From a virus: DNA of 36,293 bases. Under the pieces are notes generated by a model. It made no database searches. It had not been told where the DNA came from and saw only the letters and a list, made by a program, of their open reading frames with translations. Every line of letters begins with the position of its first letter. The stretch's first letter is position 1. Positions 1 through 27,642 of this stretch are shown in pieces. The stretch is taken from positions 1 to 36,293 of the IMG/VR virus record IMGVR_UViG_3300014491_000108. One strand, given 5' to 3'. Both the position numbers and the translations under genes were made by a program.

Positions 1-132
1 ACTTACGCCGCCACTCGGGCCGCCACTTACGCCGCCACTGACGCCGCCACTCGGGCCGCCACTCGGGCCGCCACTGACGCCGCCACTCGGGCCGCCACTT
101 ACGCCGCCACTCGGGCCGCCACTCTGGCCGCC
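1..132 (+). repeat. 12-bp tandem repeat, coding
   Basis: Eleven units of the 12-mer GCCGCCACTnnn run head to tail. The variable triplet is TAC, CGG, GAC, CTG or GAG. The repeat stays in frame and encodes Ala-Ala-Thr-x. The unit has no spacers, so this is not a CRISPR array. Such arrays change length by slippage or recombination. The array continues beyond the left edge of the window. Confidence 0.95.
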
Positions 133-663
133 ACTGAGGCCGACATCGATGCCGCCACTACTAAAAACGTGAATTGGTTTAATAGCCCCGAAAACCAATT
201 GTTATTGTCCGAACTTCTTGGTGTTGGGTTATTTGGTCTAAAATGTGTATCATACGCATGGCGTTTTGCTCAATGTGGTAATCAATGGTCTGCTTACGAG
301 TCATTTTTGTCATTTTTCCAGGATGTTGTTAAGTTGCCAATTGATTATTCAAAATATCAACCGTGGCGGAATTTAGCAGAGCATAGTGGATACCGTTTCG
401 TCCACGCAGATTTTTGTATAATTTGTGATCGCCCCGAGGTTTTGCTCGTGGACGAATTCAATAGACCCCACTGCGAAGACGGTCCATTTTGTCGATATAC
501 CGATGGGTTTTCGATGTATGCGTGGCATGGCATACGTGTTCCTCAGTGGATTATAGAATCGCCTGAATTGATTACTGTTAGCGATATCGATAACGAATCG
601 GACCAGGAAATACGGCGCGTTATGATCGAAATAAAGGGGATGGATTGGTATATCGAAAACTGA
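1..663 (+). CDS. DUF6745-like protein with T-x-A-A tetrapeptide repeats, 5' partial
   Basis: The frame is open from the first base, so the gene begins upstream of the window. The GTG at 169 lies inside the frame and is probably not the true start. The first 45 or so codons are a tetrapeptide repeat Thr-x-Ala-Ala, where x is Tyr, Arg, Asp, Leu or Glu. A folded part follows. It includes a short CIICDRPE stretch and the segment ED-GPFCRYTDGFSMYAWHG-x-RVP, then an ending with IRRVMIE. From memory this pattern (HxEDGPA.RYxDG..LYAWHG..VP.W plus a terminal EVRR) is typical of DUF6745 proteins, which often carry the same Ala/Thr repeats upstream. The biochemical role is unknown. It is followed by the small protein at 721, an association I have seen elsewhere. 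The family call is from recall and the function is not assigned. Confidence 0.7.
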   Translation, partial: TYAATRAATYAATDAATRAATRAATDAATRAATYAATRAATLAATEADIDAATTKNVNWFNSPENQLLLSELLGVGLFGLKCVSYAWRFAQCGNQWSAYESFLSFFQDVVKLPIDYSKYQPWRNLAEHSGYRFVHADFCIICDRPEVLLVDEFNRPHCEDGPFCRYTDGFSMYAWHGIRVPQWIIESPELITVSDIDNESDQEIRRVMIEIKGMDWYIEN

Positions 664-2598: not shown

Positions 2599-2612
2599 CA
2601 TAATATATATTA
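2599..2612 (+). promoter_or_regulatory. Late-promoter-like element before terminase
   Basis: CATAATATATATTA matches the first nine bases of the CATAATATA(A/G)GTTAG element seen at 8222, 24151 and 35846, but lacks the GTTAG part. It ends at the terminase ATG. Transcription starting 6-8 bases after the box would give a leaderless or nearly leaderless message. Confidence 0.5.
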
Positions 2613-4606
2613 TGGGCGATGAAGAAGTAGATTCATTAGACGCTCTGCGCAAACAAGTCGCTGAGCGTCTAAGTCGTTTAAAGGCGACGCATCATGAGGA
2701 TGTCGCACAAGAGGCAATCGCGGGCGGTATCCAGTCGCTTGCCGTCTGTGATGAGGTGTGGGAAAACGGCGTACCCCCTATGCCGTTCGATCAGTTCTGT
2801 ATTGAACTCGACGGAAACGCGCTTTACCCTCGGCAGTATAAAATCATCAAAAAGGCTGGTCTGCTCAACGCATGGGATTGGATCAAGTCGGAACGCACAC
2901 TTAACCAACTCGTTTTGATGTGGGGTAAGGGCAGCGGGAAGGATTATCTATCTGCAAAAGTGCTTGCCTACCTTGCGTACGTCGTTCTGCATGTCAAGTG
3001 GCATGGCGACGGATGGGACACGACCGCGAAATACTTTGGACTCGCATCCGATTCTCAGCTATCAATTGTGAACGTGGCTCCATCGCAGGATCATGCCCGC
3101 CGGATCTTCTTTCGCTACCTCTCAGGATTTCTAAAGCACAAACTTTTTAAGCAATACAAGCCCGAGATCCTGACCGACACGATTTCATTCTATACCGAAA
3201 AGCAGATGGAGGCTAAAAAAGTTGATGGAATGTTCCAAAAACCTCTTCCCTGGCTCGTGCTCTATTCGCTCCATTCCCGCGCATCCGGATTCGACGGAAT
3301 GAACATCATCGGTTGGGTTATGGATGAGGCCGACGACGCCGATTTCCAAAACCCCGATGCCGTATACGAGACGCTTTGCGCTTCGTGCACGACCCGTATG
3401 GTTAATCGGTGGATTGGATGTATCATCTCATACCCTCGCGTCAAAGAGGGCTTTATGATGCGCACATACGAAACGGCTAAGGCAATGATTAAGAAGATGG
3501 GCGATATGTCCTCTATGATTGCCGACAAAGCCGCGACATGGGACGTTAACCCGCGTGTCACCCGCGAAACTCCCGATATCGTACGCGCCTACGAATCCAA
3601 CCCTCAACTCGCTGCGGCCATGTACGAAGGGTCGCCAATGGAAGCCGACGACGCGTTTTTCGAGTTCCCCGAAAAGATCGATGCGGCAGTGGACCATAAT
3701 CGAAAACCCTGCGCGATCGTCATAGCGGATACCCTGGACTACGAAACGAGTTCAGGCGCGATGGACTATCACGTAACCGCCCGAGTAGAGAATATAACCC
3801 GTACGCCGGGATACGAATATTACCTTGGGGGCGACTCTGGGCGAACAGGCGATGCGTATTCTCTGGCTGTTTTTCATATCGATCAGCAGAATAACGGTTA
3901 TCACTGGTTATGTCCACGATGCGGCACTAACGCGGCTTTTCTAAACACGGCGCGATATAATCTACACCCATTCAACAGCCGGCGCGAAGTTGACGATTCG
4001 CATCTTATTATGTGTGGCGTTTGCATGGAGTCGCCGCAACCGATATCCCGGAAGGGCACAAAAATCACGTTCAATCTCGTTGGTTGGCATGAAATACAAT
4101 CGGCAGAGAGAACGACATTCGCGGGGGCAGATGGCGCGGCGTACAGCATTCCTACCCTCTATGAGGATCTAATCGTACGCATTAAGCCTGAACGAGCTAC
4201 AAGGCAGGGAGAAGTTAACCGTCCCGTTTCGCTTACATCGGTTCAGGATATCACCAAAGAACTCATGTCGCGTCTTGGCATTCGCGCTGCGAGGTTCGAC
4301 CCATGGCAAACGAACCAACTCACCGAAGAGATCAGGCGCGGGCAGTATGGAGATGCCGACAGTATCCCGTTTACCAATAATGAGCAGTATCGACGGGCAA
4401 GGCTTACAAAAGCTCTACTCTACGCAGGGCTTATCGTACTTTTGCCGAACGATTTGCGCGATAAGGAATGGAAACAGCTTAGGCTCATTAACACAACCAA
4501 AATCGATCACCCCGATGGAGGATCAAAAGACATTTGGGATTCGGAGTCAGTGGCAATCTGGACAGCGGCTACGAGTGTTGATTCTCGTATTCAGATTCTG
4601 TTTTAG
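2612..4606 (+). CDS. terL: Phage terminase large subunit
   Basis: This 664-residue protein is the DNA-packaging motor. The N-terminal ATPase has a Walker A GKGSGKD at 105-111 and a Walker B WVMDEADD at 235-242. The C-terminal RNase H-like nuclease has GGDSGRTGD at 406-414 with Asp408, FDPWQ at 562-566, and a late Asp pair near 640-643 (KDIWDSES). Between the first nuclease strand and FDPW lies an insertion with two CxxC pairs (Cys434/437 and 468/471), which probably binds zinc. No Shine-Dalgarno site precedes the ATG. No small terminase gene is recognisable nearby. Confidence 0.95.
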   Translation: MGDEEVDSLDALRKQVAERLSRLKATHHEDVAQEAIAGGIQSLAVCDEVWENGVPPMPFDQFCIELDGNALYPRQYKIIKKAGLLNAWDWIKSERTLNQLVLMWGKGSGKDYLSAKVLAYLAYVVLHVKWHGDGWDTTAKYFGLASDSQLSIVNVAPSQDHARRIFFRYLSGFLKHKLFKQYKPEILTDTISFYTEKQMEAKKVDGMFQKPLPWLVLYSLHSRASGFDGMNIIGWVMDEADDADFQNPDAVYETLCASCTTRMVNRWIGCIISYPRVKEGFMMRTYETAKAMIKKMGDMSSMIADKAATWDVNPRVTRETPDIVRAYESNPQLAAAMYEGSPMEADDAFFEFPEKIDAAVDHNRKPCAIVIADTLDYETSSGAMDYHVTARVENITRTPGYEYYLGGDSGRTGDAYSLAVFHIDQQNNGYHWLCPRCGTNAAFLNTARYNLHPFNSRREVDDSHLIMCGVCMESPQPISRKGTKITFNLVGWHEIQSAERTTFAGADGAAYSIPTLYEDLIVRIKPERATRQGEVNRPVSLTSVQDITKELMSRLGIRAARFDPWQTNQLTEEIRRGQYGDADSIPFTNNEQYRRARLTKALLYAGLIVLLPNDLRDKEWKQLRLINTTKIDHPDGGSKDIWDSESVAIWTAATSVDSRIQILF

Positions 4607-5211: not shown

Positions 5212-5287
5212 GGTCTTGTAGCTCAGTGGACAGAGCGAACGCCTTCTAAGCGTTATTGCGCAGGTTCAAATCCTGCCGGGACCACCA
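5212..5287 (+). tRNA. tRNA-Arg (anticodon TCT)
   Basis: The 76-nt cloverleaf is complete. The acceptor is GGTCTTG/CGGGACC with two G-T pairs, the D arm GCTC/GAGC, the anticodon stem AACGC/GCGTT around loop CTTCTAA, and the T arm GCAGG-TTCAAAT-CCTGC. A CCA end is encoded. The anticodon TCT (5245-5247) reads AGA codons. Phages often carry such a tRNA to supplement host-rare arginine codons. Confidence 0.95.
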
Positions 5288-8250: not shown

Positions 8251-10074
8251 ATGGACCCACTCTCAGCCTATTTTGCTCTCCAAAGCGAGAAGAAACTCAA
8301 CGACGCATTCGATGAGGCGGTTAAGCCTGTCGAACCTAAAACGGCATTCATCGAATCGGTGAAATACAACCTGTTTGAGCGCCCATATCGATCCGCACAG
8401 TTCCATAGGATTCAGAAGGCGGTCGAGTCGGGTTGGCTTAAAGCTCAAGATCAAGCTCTCCACGCCGCAAGCCAAGGCACTGTAGTCAACCCGTCGTTTC
8501 TAACATTCGGCGCGTACAGCCAACTTGCTGGCGTTCTTGAGCCGATATCTGCCACTCGCGTTACATTCGACAAACTAACCGAACTATGCGAAGGAGTTCC
8601 GGTAATTTCCTGCATCATCGGCAAGCGAGTTGAGCAAGTCGCGGAATACGCGCATATCCGGCATAGCCATATAGGGCGCTCGAAAGAGGCCGGCTTTCAT
8701 GTCTGCATGTCGGACAGCAGGGAAAAGGCGACAGCGGAAGATAAAAAGCAGATGCACGATCTTGAGATGATGATCGAAAACACCGGCTTTTGCGAACCGC
8801 CTTCCGATGAAACGCCTATTGGTTACGAGCCTACATTTGAATATTTTCTGCGTACTGCCACTCGCGACCTATTGACTTACGACTGGGTGGCGATTAGACG
8901 TTGGAAGTCTGCGATAGATCCGGATACGTATCCTGTCGTGGCGTTCACTCCAATTGACGCTTCGAGGATTCGCAGACTGCAACGAAAATTTATCGATGTT
9001 GTCGAAAATAAGATTGTCACCGAAGAGCCGGAACGCGAGCGAAAATCATCCACTCCGGGGCAAGAGATTGCACTCGTAAAGATAGATGACGATTCCAGCG
9101 TACGAATTGAAGAGTTTACTCCCGATGAAGTCGTTGTCGGATGCCGCCGTCCCCGCACAAGCGACAGCATCTACGGATACGGATATCCCGAGGGCGAAGA
9201 GATCATGAACGTAGGCACATCGTGGATAGCGGCGCTTACGCACAACAGCTCAAGGTTTAGCAGTAATAGCCTACCTCGCGGATTTATGACGGTTCTTGGC
9301 AACGCATCGGAGGCGCAACAACAGGCGTTCGCGCTGAACTTCAAAGAGATGATGAGTGGTAGTCCTTGGAAGATTCCGATCTTTCAGGCGCCCGCTCAAC
9401 AAGGGACGGCTGTTAACTGGACACCGATCGATATGAGTCCAAAAGATATGGAGTTTTCCAATTTTATGTGGATGCTCTCTTCAATCTGCCATGCGGCGTT
9501 TCATATCAGCACATCGGAAACAGGATGGGGCGATCAAAACCCATTCAAACCCGCGCTCTCCGAGGCGTCTCCCGAAGCGAATCTTAAATACAGCATGGAT
9601 ACCGGACTTCGACCGCTACTCAGATGGTGGGAGATGTTCATCAACCGTCATATCGTTTGGAAGCTGTTCCCTACGCGCAGGTACAGACTTGAGTTCTCAG
9701 GACTGGGCGACTGGGATGAGATGCAGGACACGGAAATGAGGCAGGCTCGTATGGCGGCTGGACTCACAACTCCTGTGATGGAATGGAATGACCTCGATAT
9801 CGATATGCCGGAAGAGATCAGGAACCATCCTGCCGCAAACTTCCCCGCGCCGTTCGTACAAGGCTATCAAATCCTATCGGGGCAGCAGCAAGCGGAACAA
9901 CAACAGAACGCACAACAGGAAAGCATCGCTCAACAGCTCGACTTGCAAAAGCAGAAACTTGCAGGGAGTCCGACACCGGGCGCCGGTAAAAGCGAAAACC
10001 AGGGAAGCGATAATGATAACGCTCATGCTCAAAACGAGCGAATAGAGGAACAACAGGGGCAAACTCATGCTTGA
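8251..10074 (+). CDS. Phage portal protein
   Basis: A 607-residue protein that forms the dodecameric DNA channel at the capsid vertex. Supporting features are its place after the terminase block and before the MuF gene, its length, and a wing/stem-type pattern. This includes YEPTFEYFLRTATRDLLTYD followed by VAFTPIDASRIRR (about 190-250) and a conserved-looking core with NPFKPALSEASPEANLKYSM near 430-450. The last 70 residues are Gln-rich (QQQAEQQQNAQQ), as in many portals. A near-leaderless start follows the promoter element at 8222. It overlaps the next gene by 8 bases. Confidence 0.85.
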   Translation: MDPLSAYFALQSEKKLNDAFDEAVKPVEPKTAFIESVKYNLFERPYRSAQFHRIQKAVESGWLKAQDQALHAASQGTVVNPSFLTFGAYSQLAGVLEPISATRVTFDKLTELCEGVPVISCIIGKRVEQVAEYAHIRHSHIGRSKEAGFHVCMSDSREKATAEDKKQMHDLEMMIENTGFCEPPSDETPIGYEPTFEYFLRTATRDLLTYDWVAIRRWKSAIDPDTYPVVAFTPIDASRIRRLQRKFIDVVENKIVTEEPERERKSSTPGQEIALVKIDDDSSVRIEEFTPDEVVVGCRRPRTSDSIYGYGYPEGEEIMNVGTSWIAALTHNSSRFSSNSLPRGFMTVLGNASEAQQQAFALNFKEMMSGSPWKIPIFQAPAQQGTAVNWTPIDMSPKDMEFSNFMWMLSSICHAAFHISTSETGWGDQNPFKPALSEASPEANLKYSMDTGLRPLLRWWEMFINRHIVWKLFPTRRYRLEFSGLGDWDEMQDTEMRQARMAAGLTTPVMEWNDLDIDMPEEIRNHPAANFPAPFVQGYQILSGQQQAEQQQNAQQESIAQQLDLQKQKLAGSPTPGAGKSENQGSDNDNAHAQNERIEEQQGQTHA

Positions 10075-12297: not shown

Positions 12298-12939
12298 ATG
12301 AATAAAAGAATTGTCATTTTATTTTTTGCGATATTGATGGTAGTTTGCGTTCCTGTTTTCTCGGACCCTAAATCGTATACAAGCGAAACTATTCCAGCGA
12401 TGGAAACGCCGCTTATTTACGGACTAGGGGGCGATGGAAGCATCAACCCTGTCTTTGTAGATCCTACAACGAGATCCCTTTTGGTCATCCTTACATCGTC
12501 AATATCGGGGACTAATGTTAGTAATTGGCCTTCAACATATGTTCTTGGATCAGGCACTGCGGCAATTGGAACGGTGGGAGTCACGTCATCGGTGCTCCCT
12601 ACAGGCGCATCGACTAGCGCACTCCAGACGACAGGGAATACGTCTCTATCTACAATCGCGGGCGCTGTTTCAATACCTTCGACTATTGTATCGGGTCAAT
12701 ACACGGTAACGACGACCGCTACGGCGATTACTTCGGTTACGATCAACAAACAGATTACGCTATACGCGCCTGCGACGAATACGGGGACTGCGGTTTATAT
12801 TGGACCGTCTGGGATTACGGCTTCTACGGGGTTCCCATTGCCGCCAGGCGCATCTTACACCTATACGGTAAGCAATGCGAACTCAATTTACATTCTTGGA
12901 TTAAATACCACAGACAAAATTGCTTATACTGGGAGCTAA
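12298..12939 (+). CDS. Exported beta-rich protein
   Basis: A 213-residue protein with a signal peptide (KRIVILFFAILMVVCVPVFS, cut before D23). The mature part is Ser/Thr/Gly-rich and ends with a TITLYAP-like beta module, including NKQITLYAPATNTGTAVYIG. That module resembles the small phage spike/decoration folds. An export signal on a gene inside the head module is unusual. It lies 3 bases before the next exported protein, so they form a pair. Confidence 0.68.
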   Translation: MNKRIVILFFAILMVVCVPVFSDPKSYTSETIPAMETPLIYGLGGDGSINPVFVDPTTRSLLVILTSSISGTNVSNWPSTYVLGSGTAAIGTVGVTSSVLPTGASTSALQTTGNTSLSTIAGAVSIPSTIVSGQYTVTTTATAITSVTINKQITLYAPATNTGTAVYIGPSGITASTGFPLPPGASYTYTVSNANSIYILGLNTTDKIAYTGS

Positions 12940-12942
12940 ACA

Positions 12943-14583
12943 ATGAAAATACGAAATATTATTTTATCTGTTGCGACATTATTGCTCGTTTGCCTTCCGT
13001 CGTACTCTCAATATACCCCGGCGCCTACAGTCCTAAACACGACGCATGATATCTATGTTGATGGCAACCGAACCGATACTTATGTTACGAATGGATCTGT
13101 TCAATATCCATATAAAACAATAGACGCTGCGCTCTCTCCTACGCCCACAAACGCGATAGCGATTCATTTGACCGCGGGGACATATACCGAAAATTCAGAC
13201 TTAACATTCCCGAACGTGCCGATTACGATATATGGCAATGGGGCAACTCTGAATGCCAGTGGACACAATATTGTCATTCAAAACCCTTATTATTATCGAC
13301 TGAACCTTTATACTACAGCCGCATCTATAACATTCAATAATTTCACTTCTGGAGCAAGGTGTTTAATTCATGGCGGTGGAATTACCGGAAATGTCAACGT
13401 AAATTCATACTGCGAGTTTACTCAATGCCAGATGAATAGCGGAACTGTGACGGTTGGATCTACCGGACAATGCATCGTTAATTTATGCTCCCCTACCGAC
13501 ACATTTGTCTCTACGGGGATATTGACGTTATCAAAAGTTAACATCAACACCTCGTATGCAGGGTACTTGGTCACTGCAACTGCGGGGCAACTTGTAGTTT
13601 CGGATTCGTTGATTTATAATCTAAATACGGGAGTCGGTGGCGATATTTCATGTGCGGATGGCGCAACCACAGCTCCAAACATGATCGCAAACAACGTCAT
13701 ATCTACGGCTGGCTCAGGATATTGTGTGTCGGCATCCTCCGCATATACGGTATATAGCAAAAATTATGTTGTAGGGACTAACACGGTATCAGGGACAGCA
13801 CTCCTTCCAGTTTCTTCGGATGTTGTCGGCGCCGGAAACGTTATGGCGATGGGGTCAGATGCGACAGGAGACCTTTATTATCGCAGTAGCTTAGGATTAC
13901 TGACAAGGCTAGGGGTTGGTGTCTACGGTGCTCCTTTAGTTTCTAACGGCACCCTTCCTGGGTGGTCATCATCGACCAACACAACAACAGATGTTTGGCT
14001 GAATGGACAGACATCCGCTACACCGGTTGGGGTTAATATCCATGCGCCGGGAGGCATCGGTTCTAATATTGCAGGTGCTGGTCTGAACATTTACGGAGGG
14101 GCTTCTACGGGCACTGGAGTTGGTGGTGGAATTACATTTTACACTTCACCGGCTTCTGGAACGTCTGGCGCGACAGCAAATACGCTTGTTGGTGTATTCA
14201 AAATTGATCAATACGGCCACCTATCATCAACCGGGAATACATCAACCCCTTCGATTGTACTAAACTCCTCTTATTTGTCCACACTAACAAAGACTACTAC
14301 CTGTACGGATAGATCGGGAACATTTACAGGACTGGTGAGCACTCAGATAGGGTCTGCTGCCGGGTCTACTTCTGTTTTAATTGCAACTGTAACCTTTGGG
14401 CATGTTTATACTACTGTACCTAATATTATTCTAACAGAGTATGATACATCGTCTGGAAGTGGTGGGTGGCCTGTTATTAAAAATCTTACCACTTCCGGTT
14501 TTCAAATATATCAATATGTTGCTTACAGCAATTATTACCCGGTCGGCGGTTATGTTGGTGTATCTTATATCATTGAACAGTAA
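12943..14583 (+). CDS. Exported beta-helix protein, fibre-like
   Basis: A 546-residue protein with signal peptide MKIRNIILSVATLLLVCLPS, cut near YS-QY. Residues 35-75 read DIYVDGNRTD...QYPYKTIDAAL, the usual start of a right-handed beta-helix of the pectate-lyase-3/tailspike kind. Many short Asn/Ser/Thr-rich turns follow (about 75-260). The last 200 residues look like fibre-tip material, rich in Gly and aromatic beta strands, ending YPVGGYVGVSYIIEQ. It could be a cell-surface protein or a secreted fibre. Binding or hydrolysis of a polysaccharide is inferred. Confidence 0.72.
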   Translation: MKIRNIILSVATLLLVCLPSYSQYTPAPTVLNTTHDIYVDGNRTDTYVTNGSVQYPYKTIDAALSPTPTNAIAIHLTAGTYTENSDLTFPNVPITIYGNGATLNASGHNIVIQNPYYYRLNLYTTAASITFNNFTSGARCLIHGGGITGNVNVNSYCEFTQCQMNSGTVTVGSTGQCIVNLCSPTDTFVSTGILTLSKVNINTSYAGYLVTATAGQLVVSDSLIYNLNTGVGGDISCADGATTAPNMIANNVISTAGSGYCVSASSAYTVYSKNYVVGTNTVSGTALLPVSSDVVGAGNVMAMGSDATGDLYYRSSLGLLTRLGVGVYGAPLVSNGTLPGWSSSTNTTTDVWLNGQTSATPVGVNIHAPGGIGSNIAGAGLNIYGGASTGTGVGGGITFYTSPASGTSGATANTLVGVFKIDQYGHLSSTGNTSTPSIVLNSSYLSTLTKTTTCTDRSGTFTGLVSTQIGSAAGSTSVLIATVTFGHVYTTVPNIILTEYDTSSGSGGWPVIKNLTTSGFQIYQYVAYSNYYPVGGYVGVSYIIEQ

Positions 14584-14615: not shown

Positions 14616-15485
14616 ATGAAACTCATAATCCTAAAATCAGTGCGACACGAACCGGCAGGATCAATAACAAAGGCTATTCCGCCTTCCTCAAAATACGAAC
14701 ACGGTGGAAAACTTCGCGTTAAAGTAGGCGATGAAGTTGTCTACTCCGTAAAGCTAGATCGGTCGCCTTCCGGGAAAGAGGAACTCGTTAACGCCACTGT
14801 CTCTCGAATCGTCAATCACGATTATGAGCCTCACGTCATTTTATCCTACCCAAAAGGCGCGAGAATCATACACGCAGTCGAAGATTACGATAGCCCGAAG
14901 TGGCAACCGGGAAACGGCATTGCGGCGCGTGAAGGACGGGAGCGGAAGAAGATCCTCGTGGTCGTGAAGAAATCCTGTCAACGAGATCCACTTATCATTG
15001 ACAAAAGCATCATGGCGCCCGACCCGATCATAGCCCGCATATCGGAATCGGCGGAAACGATCAACTCATTGCCAAAATGTCCTCGTTGTGGATCAAAGGA
15101 TACGGGGCTTATTGCTCCCGACTTCGAGACGTACAAATGCAAATCATGCAATCGTAATTTTACGATGAAACGAATCAAAGAATCTGGTAAAAAGGCGCTT
15201 TCGTTCTTGCAAAAGGCAGTTCATGTACCGATCTTTAGCGACCGTGGCATGATATCTAAAACGGTAGATCACGATCAGCTCAAGAATGCGCGGATCTCAG
15301 CGAATCGTAACCCTACAAAGGCCCAAAAGCTCGCGGGCAATTATCGCAAGGGCCATGTCAAAATACATGGACTGTATATCAGCATCGAAACGCCAAAAGG
15401 CGCTGTGCGAAGCGGTGTGGACCAAACCGGTAAAGCATGGAAAGTTAGGCTAAAACACGATTATGGCTATATCAGAACAGCTTGA
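14616..15485 (+). CDS. Polyvalent protein: zinc ribbon plus first half of InPase-like domain
   Basis: A 289-residue protein in modules. It opens MKLIILKSVRHEPAGSI, almost identical to a linker inside the giant protein at 15747. A charged mid-section includes KKILVVVKK. A zinc ribbon follows, CPRCGSKDTG...YKCKSCNRNF (about 155-183). The C-terminus reads NPTKAQKLAGNYRKGHVKI followed by GLYISIETPKG and HDYGYIRTA. That end is the first half of the inorganic-pyrophosphatase-like (InPase) domain of phage polyvalent proteins. It stops exactly where the family continues with DGDH(V/I)DVF. The other half begins the protein at 15747, in the same frame. Confidence 0.75.
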   Translation: MKLIILKSVRHEPAGSITKAIPPSSKYEHGGKLRVKVGDEVVYSVKLDRSPSGKEELVNATVSRIVNHDYEPHVILSYPKGARIIHAVEDYDSPKWQPGNGIAAREGRERKKILVVVKKSCQRDPLIIDKSIMAPDPIIARISESAETINSLPKCPRCGSKDTGLIAPDFETYKCKSCNRNFTMKRIKESGKKALSFLQKAVHVPIFSDRGMISKTVDHDQLKNARISANRNPTKAQKLAGNYRKGHVKIHGLYISIETPKGAVRSGVDQTGKAWKVRLKHDYGYIRTA

Positions 15486-15499
15486 TAGGAGGTGATTTT

Positions 15500-15745
15500 G
15501 TGAGCAGTAAACGAAGAATAAGGCGATTGCAACATAGGTCAAAATGTGGTAACAAAATTGGATACCAAACGCAAACGGAATGCGTAATTAATCTTATCAA
15601 AATGCAAAGAAATTTTCATGATCCATATCTCGCTTCTTATAAATGTCCGTTTTGCGGACTATGGCATTACGGGCATCGTGACAGTATAAAAAAGAAGCTA
15701 ATCGGATTGTCTAATTTTTTTGAAGGAAAGACGATGGTTGCTTAA
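15500..15745 (+). CDS. Small zinc-binding protein lodged between InPase halves
   Basis: An 81-residue basic protein from GTG 15500, preceded by a near-perfect AGGAGGTG site. It contains Cys-Gly (KCGNKIGYQT) and then YKCPFCGLWHYGHRD, a C-C-H-H zinc-binding arrangement. Small proteins ending KCPFCGGWHxGHR are common in phages and bacteria, usually of unknown role. It occupies a different frame from its neighbours and splits the InPase domain. It ends 1 base before ATG 15747. Confidence 0.75.
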   Translation: MSSKRRIRRLQHRSKCGNKIGYQTQTECVINLIKMQRNFHDPYLASYKCPFCGLWHYGHRDSIKKKLIGLSNFFEGKTMVA

Positions 15746-15746
15746 C

Positions 15747-18700
15747 ATGGACGATACAATTAAAGAACACGGGCGCCGCGCCCCTATCGGAAACGACGAT
15801 ATGCACATCGATGTAATTGTCGGGCCGCATCCCGAATCCGAAGTCGTCTATATCGTAGATCAGGTAAACCCCAAAACCGGCGCATTCGATGAACATAAGT
15901 GCGTTATGGGATGCGATTCCGAAGATGAGGCGCGCAAAGTCTATATGGGGAATTATGAGGATGGATGGAAGGGGCTTGGCGATATCAACGCCGTAACCAT
16001 TCCTCAGTTTCGAGTATGGCTCGCGTCCGGGATGACCAAAATACCGTTTGGCGGCAAAGTTCCTACATTCGGATGGTATGGCGTAGACCTAGAAGGCACT
16101 CTCGCAAAGCACATAACCGATATGACGACGATTGGCGCGCCGATACCCCGCATGGTGAAGCGAATCAAAAATCGGATGGCAAATGGCGATCAGTTTAGGA
16201 TCGTTACGGCCCGAGTTGCGCACGATAAAGACGGTTCGCTTACATGGAAGATCCGTGACTGGCTAAAGCGTATTGGCTTAGACATCCCCGTTGTCGCGAC
16301 TAAGGATAAGAACATGATCCAACTTTGGGATGACAAAGCGCGGCAGGTGAAATACAATACCGGGAAGTTTAAGAAGGCTGTTATCATCGTAAAAGCTGTT
16401 CGTCATGAACCAGCTGGCTCTATCGAAACGAATCCCGATACTGGTAAAACCATACATGGAGGACAGTTCGCGCCAGATCGATCAATCGCGACCAAAGAGC
16501 AACTTGATGCGGCTAAATCGCGTGGGGTTTATGTGCCGCCGAATTCTTGGAATGTTTGGGTAAATCCCGATCCGAAAGAAAAAGTTCTCGCGAAATGGTT
16601 TGACAGTAAGGGACGACCACAATCAGCTTATTCGGAATATGCTATTAAAGAGAGAGAATCACACAAAATCGATTCTGTTGCGCACATGGCGGAAGTCATA
16701 GACGATATTGACGATAAAATAAAGCAAGACTTGAAACTTTCTGATGCGACTAAAGACCGCGTCGCTGCGGTTGTCGCCTACATGATTAAAGAGGGATCAC
16801 TTCGAGTTGGAAGTGAAAAATACTCGGAAGAGAATGACACGTATGGCGCTTCATCGCTTCGAAAAGAACACATCAGCGTAGAAGACGGAAGGGTAAAAGT
16901 TAATTTCACGGGAAAACATCATAAGAATTGGCAACGCGAATTCCATAATCCAGATCTTGCCGATGCGGTTGAACATCTGAAAGAACTGCCGGGCGAACGA
17001 GTTTTTCAGTATCATGGACCTAAAGGCGCGCTCATTGCGATGGACGAAACGAAAATACGCGGATACTTAAAGCCTTTTGGCGTCATTCCCAAACAGTTTC
17101 GCACTTATAATGCAACAAAAATGGCAAGAGAGCTTTTGAAAGAAGCGCCAACGCCAAAAACTCAGGCTCAATCCAGGACTATTATATCAAACGTTGTGAA
17201 AAAAGTGAGCGAATATCTAGGTAACACCCCGGAAGTTTGCCGAGGATCGTATATCAATCCCGCTGTTTTGAGCGATTTTGCAGGTTCGGTTGGAAATCTA
17301 TCGAAAAGCATCGACGATGAAGATTTCAAAACCTATATTCGAATGCTTGCTAAAAAGGTAAAGATCGGAAAAGTGAAGGATGAAGATCCTTTTCCGGATG
17401 ATCTCAATAGCCTTTCAAAATCACTTCTCGTTATCGTCAAGCGCCAAACCGAGGATTTCACGTTCGGAGAGTTCGTGGAGATTGGAAAATCGCTAGACTA
17501 CGATCATGTCGAAGCGCGTATGGGCGAAGTCAAAGGATGTAAACACAATTCCGAGTTGAAGTGTATGGTCGAAGGGATTGGCGGATTTAAGCTACCCGCG
17601 ACCGTATGCAAAAAGTGCGGGCGTATCCGCATGGTCAACGCAATCCACCATACGCTTGCATCTTCAAGAATGCCTATTTTTAAGGCTTTAGCCGAGGGAT
17701 GCTACAAAGATCCAAAATCCTGTGGACTGCGTTGGATTACGGCGCATCCTAACGGAGGCGATACGGAAGGCATTCCTCTGCTCGTTCACGACAATGGCGA
17801 AGAGTATACGGTTGTCGGCGGCGCTGGCGGCAAGATGAATCAACAGGTATTCAAAAAACCAAAAGGCCAATCTTCGCCTAAGTCCGCAATACGAAAAGAG
17901 CGGCGCATAGAAAAGAAAAAGCGCATGGTTGAAGAGCTTGGCGAAAAGGGCGCTCAAATGAAGGAGAATGCCAAAGCTCTCAAAGAAGAGGCGCGAAAAC
18001 AAACCGAAGACCTCACTCAACGTGTCATCTCCATGCTTGACGATGCGTACGCGGGTGGAAACGCGCTTGATTCGGTTCGCGAAGCTGCGGTTACTCGCGC
18101 TCAAAAGGAACATCCCGACGCAACTCCTGCCGAGAAAAAGGAGTTTGCAGAGGATGCATCCGGGCGCGCCGAATCGGAAGCTAAGAATGTCGCAAGACAA
18201 CTTATCGACAAAGCGCTCAACAAAGCAGCTATGCGGGCGCTAGGAGACGATGACGGATCTACCGTCGAATTCAAAGCAAAGATATCGGGTAAAGTGCTCG
18301 TCAAGAAACTCACACCCGATCAGATCGATTCGCTTGTCACTTCATCGGCTAATATCTCTCAGCTCAAGGCTAAGGCCCGCGCTATCGAACGCGCTCTCAG
18401 CACCGGCGACCAAGAGGCGGTAAAGGGCATCGAATCCGATGTACGACCGCTATCGGTTGAAGAGGCTAAGAAGCAAAATCTCGACAAGTATATCAATGGT
18501 CTTGACGTAGACAACCAAACGAACCTTGTTCTCTCGACCAATGCCGCGCCGACAGTCACTCGAAACCGCAATCAGGCTAATGGCGCGATGGATGGACTTA
18601 ACTCGTTTACCTCGAATATCACGGGGAACGCTATCCTATCGCCTATCGCGGTCAAAACGCTTGGTGTAGAGGATGCGGCGCGAGTTGCGGCAGAATATCT

Positions 18701-20714
18701 GAAACATCATGGCGATGCGTCAGGGCTTGCAGAAGGTCTGCGCGACCGGATTGCTAAACAGTCCGTATCGTCTGTTGCCGCTGCGATCGATAGAGTACGC
18801 GAGATGGACGGAATTGTACAGAATGCGAAAGACGCGGCGGCGGTCGGCGATGGCGCGGTTACGACGGCGCAAGCATCAATCCTCGCTGCGAACATGGCGT
18901 CAAATAAATACCGGTTCCTGAATGTCGCTCGCGGTCAGCTCCGGGCGGCGGCGGCGCTTGCGCATCACCTCGAACATCCATCGACGCGACCGCTTCAAAT
19001 AAAAGGCGGATCTAACCAGACCGCAACTCACGCGCTTGCCCGCTCTCTCGGACTTGCGGAAGGCGATTACAGCGTTGAGAAGGCGGCATCGGGCGAAGGC
19101 GGCGGATATCGTATCGACATAGCGCCTGACAAGATAACGAAACTCGTTACCGAACACAAAGCGGAAGAAAGCGACCGAAACGCCAAAATGGATGATTTGC
19201 GCCAAGAAGTTGACGAACACCCTGGTGATTGGCATCCCGAAGGACTCAACTCAAATATCAGGTTGCAATCGCATCAGGAACTTGCGGCGCGGGCTATCGT
19301 AGAAAATAAGCATGTGGTTATCTCATACGGCGCAGGCAGCGGCAAAACGTCAGTGGCGTACGCGGCGGCGGCGGACCTTATTTCATCAGGTAAGATCGAC
19401 AAGGCGCTCATATCAATGCCCGCAAAACCAAAGGCGCAACAAGGCGGTCCGACAGGTGAGGCATCAAAGTTCCTTTCTCCGGAGATGGCGGGGCAAGTTG
19501 TCATTCCCGAAGGTTCCGGATTCAAAAAGGCGCTTGCTCAAATCAAGAGCGGTGAGAAAAAGATCATGGTCATTTCTCCCGATGCTTTACGCAATCATCA
19601 TCAGGAATTGATGGACGCTGGTTTTGGCGGCGAGAAATCTATGTTCATAGCCGATGAGGCACATCGGTTCGCAATCGGCGAAACGGAAGGATCGGGAAGC
19701 GGCATGGCAAAAGCGGCCGCGGACTTCGCAAAATCGGAATATGCTAGCTACATGAGCGGCACATTGATCGAAAATAACAGTTCTGAATTGTGGTCAAGTT
19801 TAAATTCCCTCTTCCCCGGACAGTACGGGTCACAGAAGCAATTTTCCGAGGAGTGGAAACGCCTTGCGCAGGGGTCCGATAACATGTTCTCACCAGAAGC
19901 CATGAACGCACTTCGATCGCGTCTTAGCGGTTCGATGGTCTCATACTTCAAGGATGTTAAAGGCGCATCAGGAGAGCCGCTTACACTCGATAGGAATACA
20001 ATCACCGTAAAGACAGCTCCTCAGCAGCGAACCGCGATTGCGCGTATCAACGCGGCGTACAGAAAAGAGAAGGCGGCGGAAGATCCATCAATCTCAAAAG
20101 CGGCAGGACTGAGACGAGACGCGAGGATCAAACGAGTTCTCACCGCCGGAGTCAAAGGCGAAAACGGAGAACTTATCAATCCAAAACTCGAAGCTGTTCA
20201 AAAGATCTTCGCCGACGAAAAGAATCGTGATCCTCAAAACAGAGTCGGTATCTACTCGTTCGAACTCAACCCGTTGCGAAATGCCGGTAAATCGCTCAAA
20301 GGCGCCAAACTTAAGACGATCACCGGCGCCGACGACGATAAGGCAACGAAGAACTCTATCGATTCGGTGAACGATCGGAAGAACGACACAGACGGCGTAT
20401 TGCTCTCAAATGCGGCGAACTATGGCGTTAACTTGCAGGGCATAGATCATTTGATAAAAATGCACCCTCTCGATACCCCGAGCATGGAAGAGCAACTCGA
20501 CCACCGTCATTTTAGGCAGGGGCAGACACGCAACGTACGCGCAACGACGATTATGACAGATCACCCTGTGGAGCAGATGAGGCAGTTTCGAAATACTCGA
20601 ATCAAGCTCCCGGAAGTAGCCCTCCTATCGAAACTATCAGACGATACGGGTAAATCGGATGTTCTCGCGAAACATTTAAGCACGATTGAGGAGGCAGCTG
20701 GTGAACGACTTTAA
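15747..20714 (+). CDS. Giant polyvalent protein: InPase half, HAD, topoisomerase IB, SNF2-type helicase
   Basis: The protein is about 1655 residues from ATG 15747; TTG 15720 is an alternative start. Residues 19-105 are the second InPase half (HIDVIVGPHPESEVVYIVDQ, NYEDGWKGLG). Residues 108-210 are HAD-like: D114-LEGT, then RIVTARV and LWDDKARQV. A linker VKAVRHEPAGSI leads into topoisomerase IB (about 230-540), with Arg372 (SLRKEH), Lys390 (FTGKHHK), Arg452 (FRTYNA), Asn493 and the tyrosine nucleophile Tyr502 (LGNTPEVCRGSY). Two Cys-rich patches and a long charged coiled region follow. The C-terminus is a SNF2-type ATPase: GAGSGKT 1195-1201, DEAH 1303-1306, SGTLIENN, and HFRQGQTR near 1590. 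It is likely packaged and injected, then acts on incoming DNA. Confidence 0.85.
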   Translation: MDDTIKEHGRRAPIGNDDMHIDVIVGPHPESEVVYIVDQVNPKTGAFDEHKCVMGCDSEDEARKVYMGNYEDGWKGLGDINAVTIPQFRVWLASGMTKIPFGGKVPTFGWYGVDLEGTLAKHITDMTTIGAPIPRMVKRIKNRMANGDQFRIVTARVAHDKDGSLTWKIRDWLKRIGLDIPVVATKDKNMIQLWDDKARQVKYNTGKFKKAVIIVKAVRHEPAGSIETNPDTGKTIHGGQFAPDRSIATKEQLDAAKSRGVYVPPNSWNVWVNPDPKEKVLAKWFDSKGRPQSAYSEYAIKERESHKIDSVAHMAEVIDDIDDKIKQDLKLSDATKDRVAAVVAYMIKEGSLRVGSEKYSEENDTYGASSLRKEHISVEDGRVKVNFTGKHHKNWQREFHNPDLADAVEHLKELPGERVFQYHGPKGALIAMDETKIRGYLKPFGVIPKQFRTYNATKMARELLKEAPTPKTQAQSRTIISNVVKKVSEYLGNTPEVCRGSYINPAVLSDFAGSVGNLSKSIDDEDFKTYIRMLAKKVKIGKVKDEDPFPDDLNSLSKSLLVIVKRQTEDFTFGEFVEIGKSLDYDHVEARMGEVKGCKHNSELKCMVEGIGGFKLPATVCKKCGRIRMVNAIHHTLASSRMPIFKALAEGCYKDPKSCGLRWITAHPNGGDTEGIPLLVHDNGEEYTVVGGAGGKMNQQVFKKPKGQSSPKSAIRKERRIEKKKRMVEELGEKGAQMKENAKALKEEARKQTEDLTQRVISMLDDAYAGGNALDSVREAAVTRAQKEHPDATPAEKKEFAEDASGRAESEAKNVARQLIDKALNKAAMRALGDDDGSTVEFKAKISGKVLVKKLTPDQIDSLVTSSANISQLKAKARAIERALSTGDQEAVKGIESDVRPLSVEEAKKQNLDKYINGLDVDNQTNLVLSTNAAPTVTRNRNQANGAMDGLNSFTSNITGNAILSPIAVKTLGVEDAARVAAEYLKHHGDASGLAEGLRDRIAKQSVSSVAAAIDRVREMDGIVQNAKDAAAVGDGAVTTAQASILAANMASNKYRFLNVARGQLRAAAALAHHLEHPSTRPLQIKGGSNQTATHALARSLGLAEGDYSVEKAASGEGGGYRIDIAPDKITKLVTEHKAEESDRNAKMDDLRQEVDEHPGDWHPEGLNSNIRLQSHQELAARAIVENKHVVISYGAGSGKTSVAYAAAADLISSGKIDKALISMPAKPKAQQGGPTGEASKFLSPEMAGQVVIPEGSGFKKALAQIKSGEKKIMVISPDALRNHHQELMDAGFGGEKSMFIADEAHRFAIGETEGSGSGMAKAAADFAKSEYASYMSGTLIENNSSELWSSLNSLFPGQYGSQKQFSEEWKRLAQGSDNMFSPEAMNALRSRLSGSMVSYFKDVKGASGEPLTLDRNTITVKTAPQQRTAIARINAAYRKEKAAEDPSISKAAGLRRDARIKRVLTAGVKGENGELINPKLEAVQKIFADEKNRDPQNRVGIYSFELNPLRNAGKSLKGAKLKTITGADDDKATKNSIDSVNDRKNDTDGVLLSNAANYGVNLQGIDHLIKMHPLDTPSMEEQLDHRHFRQGQTRNVRATTIMTDHPVEQMRQFRNTRIKLPEVALLSKLSDDTGKSDVLAKHLSTIEEAAGERL

Positions 20715-21246
20715 TTCTCCTAATCCAGAAGGACGATTTAAGCATAGGCGCTATATGTGCGCATCCGAACAGCCTAAGATCGAAGGCTATTCGTGCATTG
20801 CGTCGGTTCGCGGCGGTTACGTTTGGCAAAGCGGGAGCATCAACGCCGAAATATTCAAAATACCTCGTAAACTTGTTGTTGTGCAAATGGAAGGCACATT
20901 TTGCGATCATCGGGCCGTACACAACGGTCATAATATCATAGCGGTGATAACCGAAGCAATCGAAGATGCGCCAAACGCGGTATTGCCGGACAATGAATAT
21001 CTTGCGCTTGTCGATTCGATTATAGCCTATCTCGATAACGACTTCGATGCTGTTATCCATTGCGGTATGGGAATATCTAGATCAAGCTACGTGACATTGG
21101 GGGTTCTTATGAGAGGGACTAAACTGAGTTTCGATGAAGCGCTTCGAATATTAAAAGAGGGGCGCCCGGTGGCGAACCCCAATGCCGGTTTTGCCGCGCA
21201 CGTAAAGCGATTGGAGAGTGTCTTAATTGGCAATCAAAAACTTTGA
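20701..21246 (+). CDS. Dual-specificity / tyrosine phosphatase-like protein
   Basis: From GTG 20701 (GAGGAGG 6 bases upstream) the product has 181 residues. It contains VIHCGMGISRSSYV, a complete HCX5R phosphatase loop with nucleophile Cys121 and Arg127. This is followed by the usual helix and LSFDEALRILKEGRP...PN, as in dual-specificity phosphatases. The general-acid Asp probably lies in the preceding loop (AVLPDNEYLALVD), but I cannot fix it. It overlaps the giant gene by 14 bases. A phosphatase next to co-injected proteins suggests an action on host or virion phosphoproteins, which is inferred. Confidence 0.85.
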   Translation: MNDFNSPNPEGRFKHRRYMCASEQPKIEGYSCIASVRGGYVWQSGSINAEIFKIPRKLVVVQMEGTFCDHRAVHNGHNIIAVITEAIEDAPNAVLPDNEYLALVDSIIAYLDNDFDAVIHCGMGISRSSYVTLGVLMRGTKLSFDEALRILKEGRPVANPNAGFAAHVKRLESVLIGNQKL

Positions 21247-25851: not shown

Positions 25852-27642
25852 ATGAAACAAGATATTTCTACTAGGTATGCAATCGAAGGTATTCCTGGTT
25901 TTGAACAAATGCCGAAAGATTATTCGAGCTCAGGTTTTGCGGCTCTGCAATCTGAGGCCGATAATCAGGAAGTCGTCCGTGCGAGCGCCCTTGCAAAGGC
26001 TCTCAGTTCCGGCGACCCTAAGTTCATTCGCCAAGTCAATGACGCGATCATCGAAGCGAATGTCCCGCTATTAAAGGCGGTATCGGACAGCGACGAACCG
26101 ATGATGAAGGCCCTTACGACCGGAAACGGCATCGTACAGGCTGGAGACACGGGGGGGCGCGCTCTGCGTGTTCAGTTCCTGCAAAAGACGCTTCAAAGCG
26201 TTTCGTTCGACAATCAAGATGTTTTCGTCATGAAGAACATCCCGCATAAAGACGCCAAGAGCGTTGCCGTGGAATGGACCAACTTCACGACTTACAACTC
26301 TCAGGGCGACGGGTTCTCTCCCGAGAGCGGACTTGATGGCAACTTTAACGGAAACGCGGAAGACGCCGGATTCAGCAGGCAGTTGCAGAATGTCAAGTTC
26401 CTTATCACTGCCGCTCAGGTTTCGGTTGTCGCTTCGCTGGTTCAGAATATCGAAAATCCAGAAGTGGCCGCGCAGACCGCCGCTACGCTTCGGCTTTTGG
26501 CCCGAGCCGAATTGAACATGTTCAACGGGGATTCTACTCTGTCGAACACTCAGTATAACGGAATCGAAGCGCAGATCATTCAAAATCTTGATATCAACCC
26601 TCAAGATTCGGTTGGATCGATCTACGATGCTGGCGGACAGGCTCTTTCGTATCAGATGTTGCAAGATATCTGTGTTCAAAATGCGCTTCAATTCGGAAAT
26701 CCTTCGCTTTTGATCAACAGCTGGACAACCAAAGCGGATATCGCAAATGCAATATTCCCGCAAGGCCGCTTTGGAATCGATCAGAATACGAATGGTTTCA
26801 AGTTTGTTCCCGACAGTTTCGATTATCAGGGAGGCAAGGTGAAACTTGGCGCCGCGAAGTTCCTGAGAGCTAATCACCCGCTCGCGATGGAAGGCCCTGG
26901 TCTAACGGGACAGATGCGAAACAGTTCTACTGTTGATGCTCTTGCCCTGGTGTGGGGAACAAGCCCGTTTGCGAACTCCGGCGCTGTTCCTACGCCTGCG
27001 GTTGCCGGAACTGGCAACTTCTGGCGAAACTTCACGCGAAACACGGATTCCGGTGCTGTTCCTGCGCCTTCGCTCCCTGCCGGTGGAAACAACTCGAACC
27101 GACTATCGGCTGGCACATATTGCTACGCTGTGAGCATCGTCTATCAGGGATGGGAGAGTCTCCCTTGGGTGTATGGCGCTTCGGCGGCTGGCACTCTTAC
27201 GGGCGCTTCGGCGGTCACTGTTAGCACAGGCGATCCGATTGTCGCTCTTACCGTTGACACGACCACTCCCGCCGTAACGGGACTTGGCTCGACCTATCCG
27301 CGAAATATCGTTAAGTTCCGATGGTATCGCGCTCCTTCGGCGAATGCGTCGTCTTGGGCAAGCTATCAGTACCTCGGCGAGACAGGGACACCGATTGCGG
27401 GCAATGCCGTTCTCTACGACAACGGCTATTCGATCCCCGGCGCCGATAAGTCCTATCTTATCACCGAAGCGAAGAATGGTATCTCTGGTTGGGGTTGGTA
27501 TCAGTTACTACCGCTCATGAAGCGGGCGTTACCTAATCTGCTCATGGCCGATCAGTTCGGAGAGTTGCTATTCGGAACGCTTGCGCTTATGGTGGCAAGG
27601 CACCACACGGTCATTCGAAACATCGGTCGATACACGGCATAG
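25852..27642 (+). CDS. Major capsid protein with delta region and beta insertion
   Basis: A 596-residue protein. Residues 1-105 are a helical delta-type region ending in KALTTG...GDTGG...ALRVQFL (86-110), a likely cleavage zone. The HK97-like core follows: SVAVEWTNFTTYNSQGDGF, VKFLITAAQVSVVASLVQN, TLRLLARAELNMFNGDSTLS, then ALQFGNPSLLINSWTTKADI. Residues near 385-545 form an insertion of Gly/Ser/Pro-rich beta strands. It includes SAGTYCYAVSIVYQGWES and PRNIVKFRWYRAPSANASSW, typical of an Ig- or fibronectin-like decoration domain. The last 50 residues (LPLMKRALPNLLMADQFGEL, GTLALMVARHHTVIRNIGRY) return to the core. Confidence 0.88.
   Translation: MKQDISTRYAIEGIPGFEQMPKDYSSSGFAALQSEADNQEVVRASALAKALSSGDPKFIRQVNDAIIEANVPLLKAVSDSDEPMMKALTTGNGIVQAGDTGGRALRVQFLQKTLQSVSFDNQDVFVMKNIPHKDAKSVAVEWTNFTTYNSQGDGFSPESGLDGNFNGNAEDAGFSRQLQNVKFLITAAQVSVVASLVQNIENPEVAAQTAATLRLLARAELNMFNGDSTLSNTQYNGIEAQIIQNLDINPQDSVGSIYDAGGQALSYQMLQDICVQNALQFGNPSLLINSWTTKADIANAIFPQGRFGIDQNTNGFKFVPDSFDYQGGKVKLGAAKFLRANHPLAMEGPGLTGQMRNSSTVDALALVWGTSPFANSGAVPTPAVAGTGNFWRNFTRNTDSGAVPAPSLPAGGNNSNRLSAGTYCYAVSIVYQGWESLPWVYGASAAGTLTGASAVTVSTGDPIVALTVDTTTPAVTGLGSTYPRNIVKFRWYRAPSANASSWASYQYLGETGTPIAGNAVLYDNGYSIPGADKSYLITEAKNGISGWGWYQLLPLMKRALPNLLMADQFGELLFGTLALMVARHHTVIRNIGRYTA

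Follow-up and report, generated by a model that had tools for sequence, protein, structure and literature searches.

The locus studied here raises the question of what a phage chain that joins several unrelated enzyme domains does beside the virion genes, and at which point of infection it acts. We analyzed a 36-kb virus record (IMGVR_UViG_3300014491_000108; 36,293 nucleotides, hereafter the window), which is likely a fragment and, on the + strand, carries the head module of a tailed phage. Its ORF P0001 occupies exactly 15747-20714 on the + strand and encodes 1655 aa with zero internal stops; translation could alternatively begin at an in-frame TTG at 15738, and the opposite strand is dense with stop codons. 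The initial annotation had described a single ORF comprising half an InPase, a HAD domain, a type IB topoisomerase (TopIB) and an SNF2-type helicase, and this composition was confirmed by Pfam, PHROGs, a PDB match and alignments. P0001 is a phage polyvalent protein, with at least two unrelated catalytic domains in one chain near virion genes. The surrounding features were as follows.

2612-4606, + strand: terminase large subunit (phrog_2, E = 1e-17)
8251-10074, + strand: portal protein (phrog_12, E = 1.3e-24)
15747-20714, + strand: P0001, polyvalent ORF with InPase C-terminal half, HAD, TopIB and SNF2 helicase (Pfam, PHROGs)
20686-21246: ORF resembling dual-specificity phosphatases (PF00782, E = 3e-11), with an overlap at the end of P0001
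24296-25120, + strand: prohead-protease-like ORF (similar to the protease-position ORF of the viral contig L116, E = 2e-6; weak XkdF-type Pfam match)
From 25123, + strand: scaffold-like ORF
25852-27642, + strand: major capsid protein, MCP (phrog_752, E = 5.6e-35)

The P0001 gene sits between the portal and MCP genes, and the window order matches that of Morganella phage Mecenats66 (terminase, portal, minor head, helicase, protease, MCP), the protease-like ORF holding the same position in both. No nucleotide relatives of the window were found in the phage collection, and viral-contig scans with P0001, MCP or portal as single proteins, which reach close relatives only, gave at most one match, which was InPase-only. 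Elsewhere in the head module, the protease-like ORF has a C-terminal region, KALTTGGGIVENGDTGGEALREQFL, that resembles the N-terminal region of the MCP, KALTTGNGIVQAGDTGGRALRVQFL (E = 2e-7), and an equivalent motif is common to the protease (17802-18596) and MCP (19307-20698) of L034; the motif may serve both proteins as a signal for assembly or cleavage. Two adjacent ORFs (12298-12939 and 12943-14583) both have signal-peptide-like N-termini, and a long Ala-Ala-Thr-x repeat (AATRAATYAATD...; window 1-200) opens the first ORF of the window.

The domains of P0001 and the two ORFs ahead of it were assigned as follows.

14616-15485, + strand: P0002, 289 aa, with a KSVRHEPAGS-like N-terminus, a zinc ribbon and the InPase N-terminal half
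15482-15745, + strand: P0003, small Cys/His zinc-finger-like ORF between the InPase halves (phrog_14788)
15789-16022, + strand: InPase C-terminal half, P0001 residues 15-92 (PF18823 profile 57-134 of 135, E = 2e-24)
16074-16370, + strand: HAD-type domain, residues ~110-208, with motif I DLEGT, TAR, K and WDD (homologue alignment)
16380-16469, + strand: repeat of the P0002 N-terminus (VIIVKAVRHEPAGSI..HGGQF) between HAD and TopIB (blastp)
16512-17285, + strand: type IB topoisomerase, residues 256-513 (Pfam, PDB match, alignments)
17286-17708, + strand: linker with paired cysteines, residues 514-654, mostly predicted to be disordered (AlphaFold pLDDT <50 over most of it)
17715-19226, + strand: helicase N-terminal region, residues 657-1160 (alignment to L012, Mecenats66 and ~25 others)
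19257-20579, + strand: SNF2-type SF2 ATPase, residues 1171-1611 (Pfam, phrog_62, PDB, alignment)

The InPase (PF18823), an OB-fold domain, is not complete in one chain. The half recognized by the initial annotation is the C-terminal one, as located in P0001, but the other half is not missing: it ends P0002 at residues 236-288 (window 15321-15479; profile 2-54, E = 1.1e-18), with P0003 as a third ORF between the two. PHROG matches of P0002 stop where those of P0001 start (for example, phrog_30335 756-813 versus 814-904). P0003 is 81-87 aa long, with a probable GTG start at 15500 preceded by AGGAGG; its GC content is 36% versus 48-50% in the ORFs on either side, and its homologues are weak matches to small ORFs scattered across unrelated phages. 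Because the InPase halves flank this AT-rich ORF, a longer ancestral chain appears to have been split, and insertion of the small gene within the InPase would be the simplest account. An interrupting group I or II intron was rejected, since Rfam recognized no intron RNA between the halves at E ≤ 1 (the sole Rfam match was a tRNA at 5212-5284).

The motifs of both N-terminal domains depart from their families. The catalytic, metal-binding motif of the P0001 InPase is DDMHID instead of DxDxxD, whereas D-x-[DE]-x-x-D was present in 33 of 33 distinct relatives with a readable motif (6 gave no regex match). The HAD domain shares 45% identity over ~98 aa with a domain of Tunturi_5 gp273 and is also similar to a BcepSauron 'HAD hydrolase'; the T of motif II, K of motif III and DD of motif IV are present, but the second Asp of the DxD in motif I is Glu, which among the aligned phage homologues occurs in the window only. 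Since these catalytic motifs are substituted, we infer that the InPase of P0001/P0002 and the HAD have lost activity and are vestigial. Behind the HAD, a repeat, LIILKSVRHEPAGSI...HGG, occurs at both 14622-14723 (P0002 N-terminus) and 16380-16469 (P0001), the two proteins matching in blastp at E = 4e-5 with 42% over 64. This VRHEPAGS repeat alone holds up among tag-like signals; a hydrophobic-Lys-Ala/Ser 'capsid-targeting tag' across window proteins was discarded, as its 8 occurrences against 7.8 expected in shuffles showed no enrichment.

The topoisomerase match on which the initial annotation had staked its reading was clear, with Pfam Topoisom_I at residues 301-497 (E = 1.8e-30) and the putative bacterial type I topoisomerase 2f4q as the best PDB match (E = 5e-29). 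Alignment to 2f4q and 14 other viral TopIBs placed the catalytic Arg, Lys, Arg, His/Asn and Tyr in order on the TopIB fold, as R353 (16803), K390 (16914), R452 (17100), N493 and Y502 (17250). Of the catalytic residues named initially, Lys390, Arg452 and Tyr502 stood, but Arg372, within LRKEHI, is a conserved, non-catalytic neighbour, and the invariant arginine is R353 within LRVGSEK. R353, K390, R452 and Y502 are invariant among the 15 viral TopIBs, and position 493 is Asn in the window and His in others. By alignment, the TopIB is complete, with every active-site residue intact.

The phage SNF2 helicase spans residues ~640-1655 of P0001. Walker A (GAGSGKT, 1195-1201), DEAH (1303-1306) and the SNF2-like motif VI HFRQGQ (1588-1593, in QLDHRHFRQGQ) are all intact in the alignment, as noted initially, and the DExH motif, the QxxxRxxRxGQ form of motif VI and family-wide homology identify an SNF2-type SF2 ATPase. 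Pfam ResIII, DEAD and SNF2-rel profiles matched residues 1171-1384 (E = 6e-11 to 5e-7), Helicase_C matched weakly at 1480-1590, and the DNA helicase family phrog_62 matched 1148-1611 (E = 3e-47). Residues 657-1649 align with the L012 helicase at 25% identity (E = 6e-63), and a genome-contig scan with the helicase returned two loci only. Pfam found no DNA methylase in P0001.

The middle ~650 residues had been described as lacking any known fold. We modelled residues 505-1190, enclosing the 540-1180 stretch initially proposed for structure prediction, from 27 sequences; the model (mean pLDDT 72) has a disordered linker from 505 to ~640, followed by what is predicted to be a small beta domain (WITAHPNG / VVGGAGGKMN motif) and a long alpha-helical stretch. 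No PDB fold matched it (best E 0.38), in keeping with the initial description, but the region aligns with phage helicases over most of its length, and on this alignment we take it to be the helicase family's own recurring N-terminal region, not an orphan insert. RALSTG (882), considered as a prohead-protease site akin to KALSSG of the MCP, was dismissed because this stretch aligns within the helicase family.

We then asked how TopIB is joined to other domains among viruses. In a Pfam scan of 68 non-redundant viral TopIB ORFs, in which counts are per family and may overlap, Phage_portal_3 was present in 12 ORFs, other portal families in 3 (1+1+1), MuF in 5 and, of the prohead-protease-like families, DUF2213 in 2 and Mu-like_Pro in 1. 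Portal ORFs of several types with a C-terminal TopIB occurred in L170, L165, L189, L137, L133, L157, L161, L143, L147, L121, L179, L122, L155 and L117, and L122 combines portal, InPase and TopIB in a single 1100-aa ORF; an InPase-like stretch is also found at the portal C-terminus in PDB 9b41. L112 (6174-8249) and L114 (9710-11785) encode TopIB with a prohead-protease-like region between the portal and MCP genes. The L112 TopIB is the nearest to that of the window (45.6% identity over residues 214-552, E = 3e-92), and this type of fusion groups with the window TopIB on a quick tree (SH-aLRT 99). Most ORFs supporting the link between TopIB and the virion are metagenomic, and nothing in the phage collection reached 80% coverage of a portal-TopIB query. 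Comparison strongly suggests that TopIBs of this kind, fused to portal, MuF or protease, belong to the virion. Because of these fusions in relatives, packaging of P0001 is well supported by comparison, and the initial suggestion of a packaged protein gains further support from the position of the gene between portal and MCP.

Individual TopIB ORFs had further features. In L125 (5696-10675), a MuF protein that ends in a TopIB also has an intein-like insertion; the 1857-aa ORF of L134 (8165-13735) combines TopIB and NUDIX with a region resembling a DNA methylase; and in L015 (9968-11044) and L022 (9857-11044), TopIB is fused to an SprT-like HExxH metalloprotease domain, the L022 copy adjoining terminase.

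Two profile scans, one of IMG/VR with TopIB and one with the helicase, brought together related viral contigs that carry the same pieces in different arrangements. In L012, the portal gene is followed by a PNKP-like HAD (phrog_415, E = 4e-13), TopIB and SNF2 with just small ORFs in between; in L024, by TopIB+InPase, SNF2 and MCP; and in L033/L034 and L142, by TopIB and then InPase+SNF2 as a single ORF. The order in L116 is SNF2, protease, MCP, neck genes and TopIB, and the protease, MCP and neck genes are common to L116 and the window. InPase occurred in 29 of 50 SNF2-helicase records versus 0 of 14 control genomes, and TopIB in 2 of the 50, a rarity suggesting that TopIB is dispensable to that helicase. 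On the TopIB tree, a quick one in which many branches lack support, SNF2-linked TopIBs fell in at least three places. Inheritance of TopIB-SNF2 as a single unit is therefore disfavoured, and the link does not appear to be one inherited accident.

On balance, we lean toward P0001 being a virion-delivered polyvalent protein whose TopIB and SNF2 ATPase manage the topology or protein occupancy of incoming DNA. The ancestral chain would have been InPase-HAD-TopIB-SNF2, later split within the InPase by the 81-87-aa zinc-finger gene, so that P0001 represents the large C-terminal piece of a head-module polyvalent protein. It would most likely be packaged into the prohead and enter the cell together with the DNA. 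SNF2 ATPases move along duplex DNA without opening the strands, as stated by Iyer et al. 2017 (PMC5512222); the SNF2 ATPase of P0001 may accordingly track along the incoming duplex, remodel or strip bound proteins and generate torsion, which the tethered TopIB would relax. Of the parts highlighted initially, TopIB and SNF2 are intact, whereas the InPase is split and the HAD looks degenerate at catalytic positions; because the InPase and HAD motifs are apparently degenerate, TopIB and SNF2 are presumably the working parts.

DNA topology and remodelling rank first among the functions considered, and counter-defence second. P0001 could be chiefly anti-defence, phosphoesterase-type partners (InPase and HAD here, 2H/Acb1 or NUDIX elsewhere) destroying nucleotide alarm signals and SNF2/TopIB shielding DNA from restriction in a DarB-like manner, which we regard as rather unlikely. 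Such a role would suit the 2'-5' RNA-ligase-type 2H, Acb1 anti-CBASS and NUDIX domains in other TopIB ORFs (4, 2 and 3 of the 68, respectively) and the HAD_SAK_1 or 2H ahead of TopIB in L003/L014, L020, L017 and L018; Iyer et al. 2017 (PMC5512222) proposed that polyvalent InPases act on nucleotides and that SNF2+methylase serves to evade restriction. However, the window InPase is split and minus one catalytic acid, HAD motif I is altered, and P0001 has no Pfam methylase match. Repair of strand breaks is improbable as the main task, although it would explain why TopIB in L012 has a PNKP-like HAD gene next to it, as well as the HAD_SAK_1-TopIB fusions and the TopIB-SprT-like fusions of L015 and L022: SNF2 would clear DNA, TopIB would cut and rejoin it, and PNKP-like/HAD phosphatases or SprT-like proteases would heal TopIB-DNA complexes trapped on packaged or injected DNA. 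Neither SprT-like match is better than weak (E 2e-5 and 2e-3), we saw no TDP1-like enzyme, and in the window HAD the second Asp of DxD is missing.

It is likewise unlikely that P0001 is an ordinary factor for replication or transcription inside the cell, unpackaged and located in the late region by chance. Some phages, Lu11 and BS162P1 among them, encode TopIB as a stand-alone gene, which has also been reported for jumbo phages (PMC7824862), and since the TopIBs of the isolates Lu11 and Motura have no established head link, a phage TopIB can be a replication gene too. This is countered by the head-module position of TopIB in several lineages and by the recurrence of fusions that join it to portal, to MuF or to prohead protease. 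That P0001 is the remnant of a decaying locus, in which an insertion split a polyvalent gene, is very improbable: the split InPase, lost acid and AT-rich insert would fit, but 1655 codons remain open, all TopIB and SNF2 catalytic motifs are intact, and an in-frame ATG for the downstream ORF lies directly behind the insert.

Polyvalent proteins are already known, as are the InPases and SNF2 helicases of phages. Like P0001, the polyvalent proteins of Iyer et al. 2017 (PMC5512222) carry several unrelated enzyme domains per chain in a virion-gene setting and include InPase and SWI2/SNF2 ATPase, but P0001 has no methylase. The searched text of that paper does not treat TopIB as a polyvalent domain, and 'topoisomerase' appears in it once, in a reference title. 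The phrog_62 helicases (Mecenats66, 1371 aa) are homologous to P0001 over ~1000 residues and take an equal place in the head operon; P0001 differs in being fused to TopIB and HAD and located behind InPase, and its helicase N-terminal region is shorter than that of Mecenats66 and resembles those of L012, L033 and L034. With bacterial, DraTopIB-type 2f4q, the window TopIB has the full catalytic core in common, with Asn at the His position, but it is one part of a 1655-aa chain that also includes an ATPase. P1 DarB, a packaged protein whose N-terminus targets it to the capsid (PMC9024508), is likewise a large virion-module protein with an SNF2 ATPase (the latter per PMC5512222). DarB joins methylase to SNF2, and P0001, with TopIB in the methylase's stead, is not a DarB.

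Reverse gyrase, as an analogy only, also joins a topoisomerase to an SF2 ATPase. Its topoisomerase is type IA (Toprim) and not homologous in design to a type IB chain. In poxviruses, TopIB (H6) and the SNF2-like ATPase NPH-I (D11) are separate proteins of eukaryotic viruses, in contrast to the single phage chain of P0001, and again serve as analogy. Both H6 and D11 were detected in a preparation of lumpy skin disease virions, and neither was selected as a packaging candidate in that study (PMC10617387). In searches of open-access papers, neither a TopIB that recurs in head modules or in fusion with portals nor a single TopIB-SNF2 chain was described. It is a tentative and rather doubtful proposition that capsid-borne TopIBs, whether anchored to portal, MuF or protease or fused to an SNF2 translocase like that of P0001, form a recurrent, undescribed injected class, with P0001 as a type IB counterpart of reverse gyrase, an ATP-driven translocase plus topoisomerase, setting the topology of the incoming genome.

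With these comparisons, TopIB joins the known polyvalent or virion-linked domains, and they suggest that a small inserted gene can break a polyvalent chain and leave its DNA-acting half intact. Little is known about what phages do to the topology of their genomes on entry, and with TopIB fusions to portal, MuF, prohead protease and SNF2, delivery of a topoisomerase together with phage DNA becomes directly testable.
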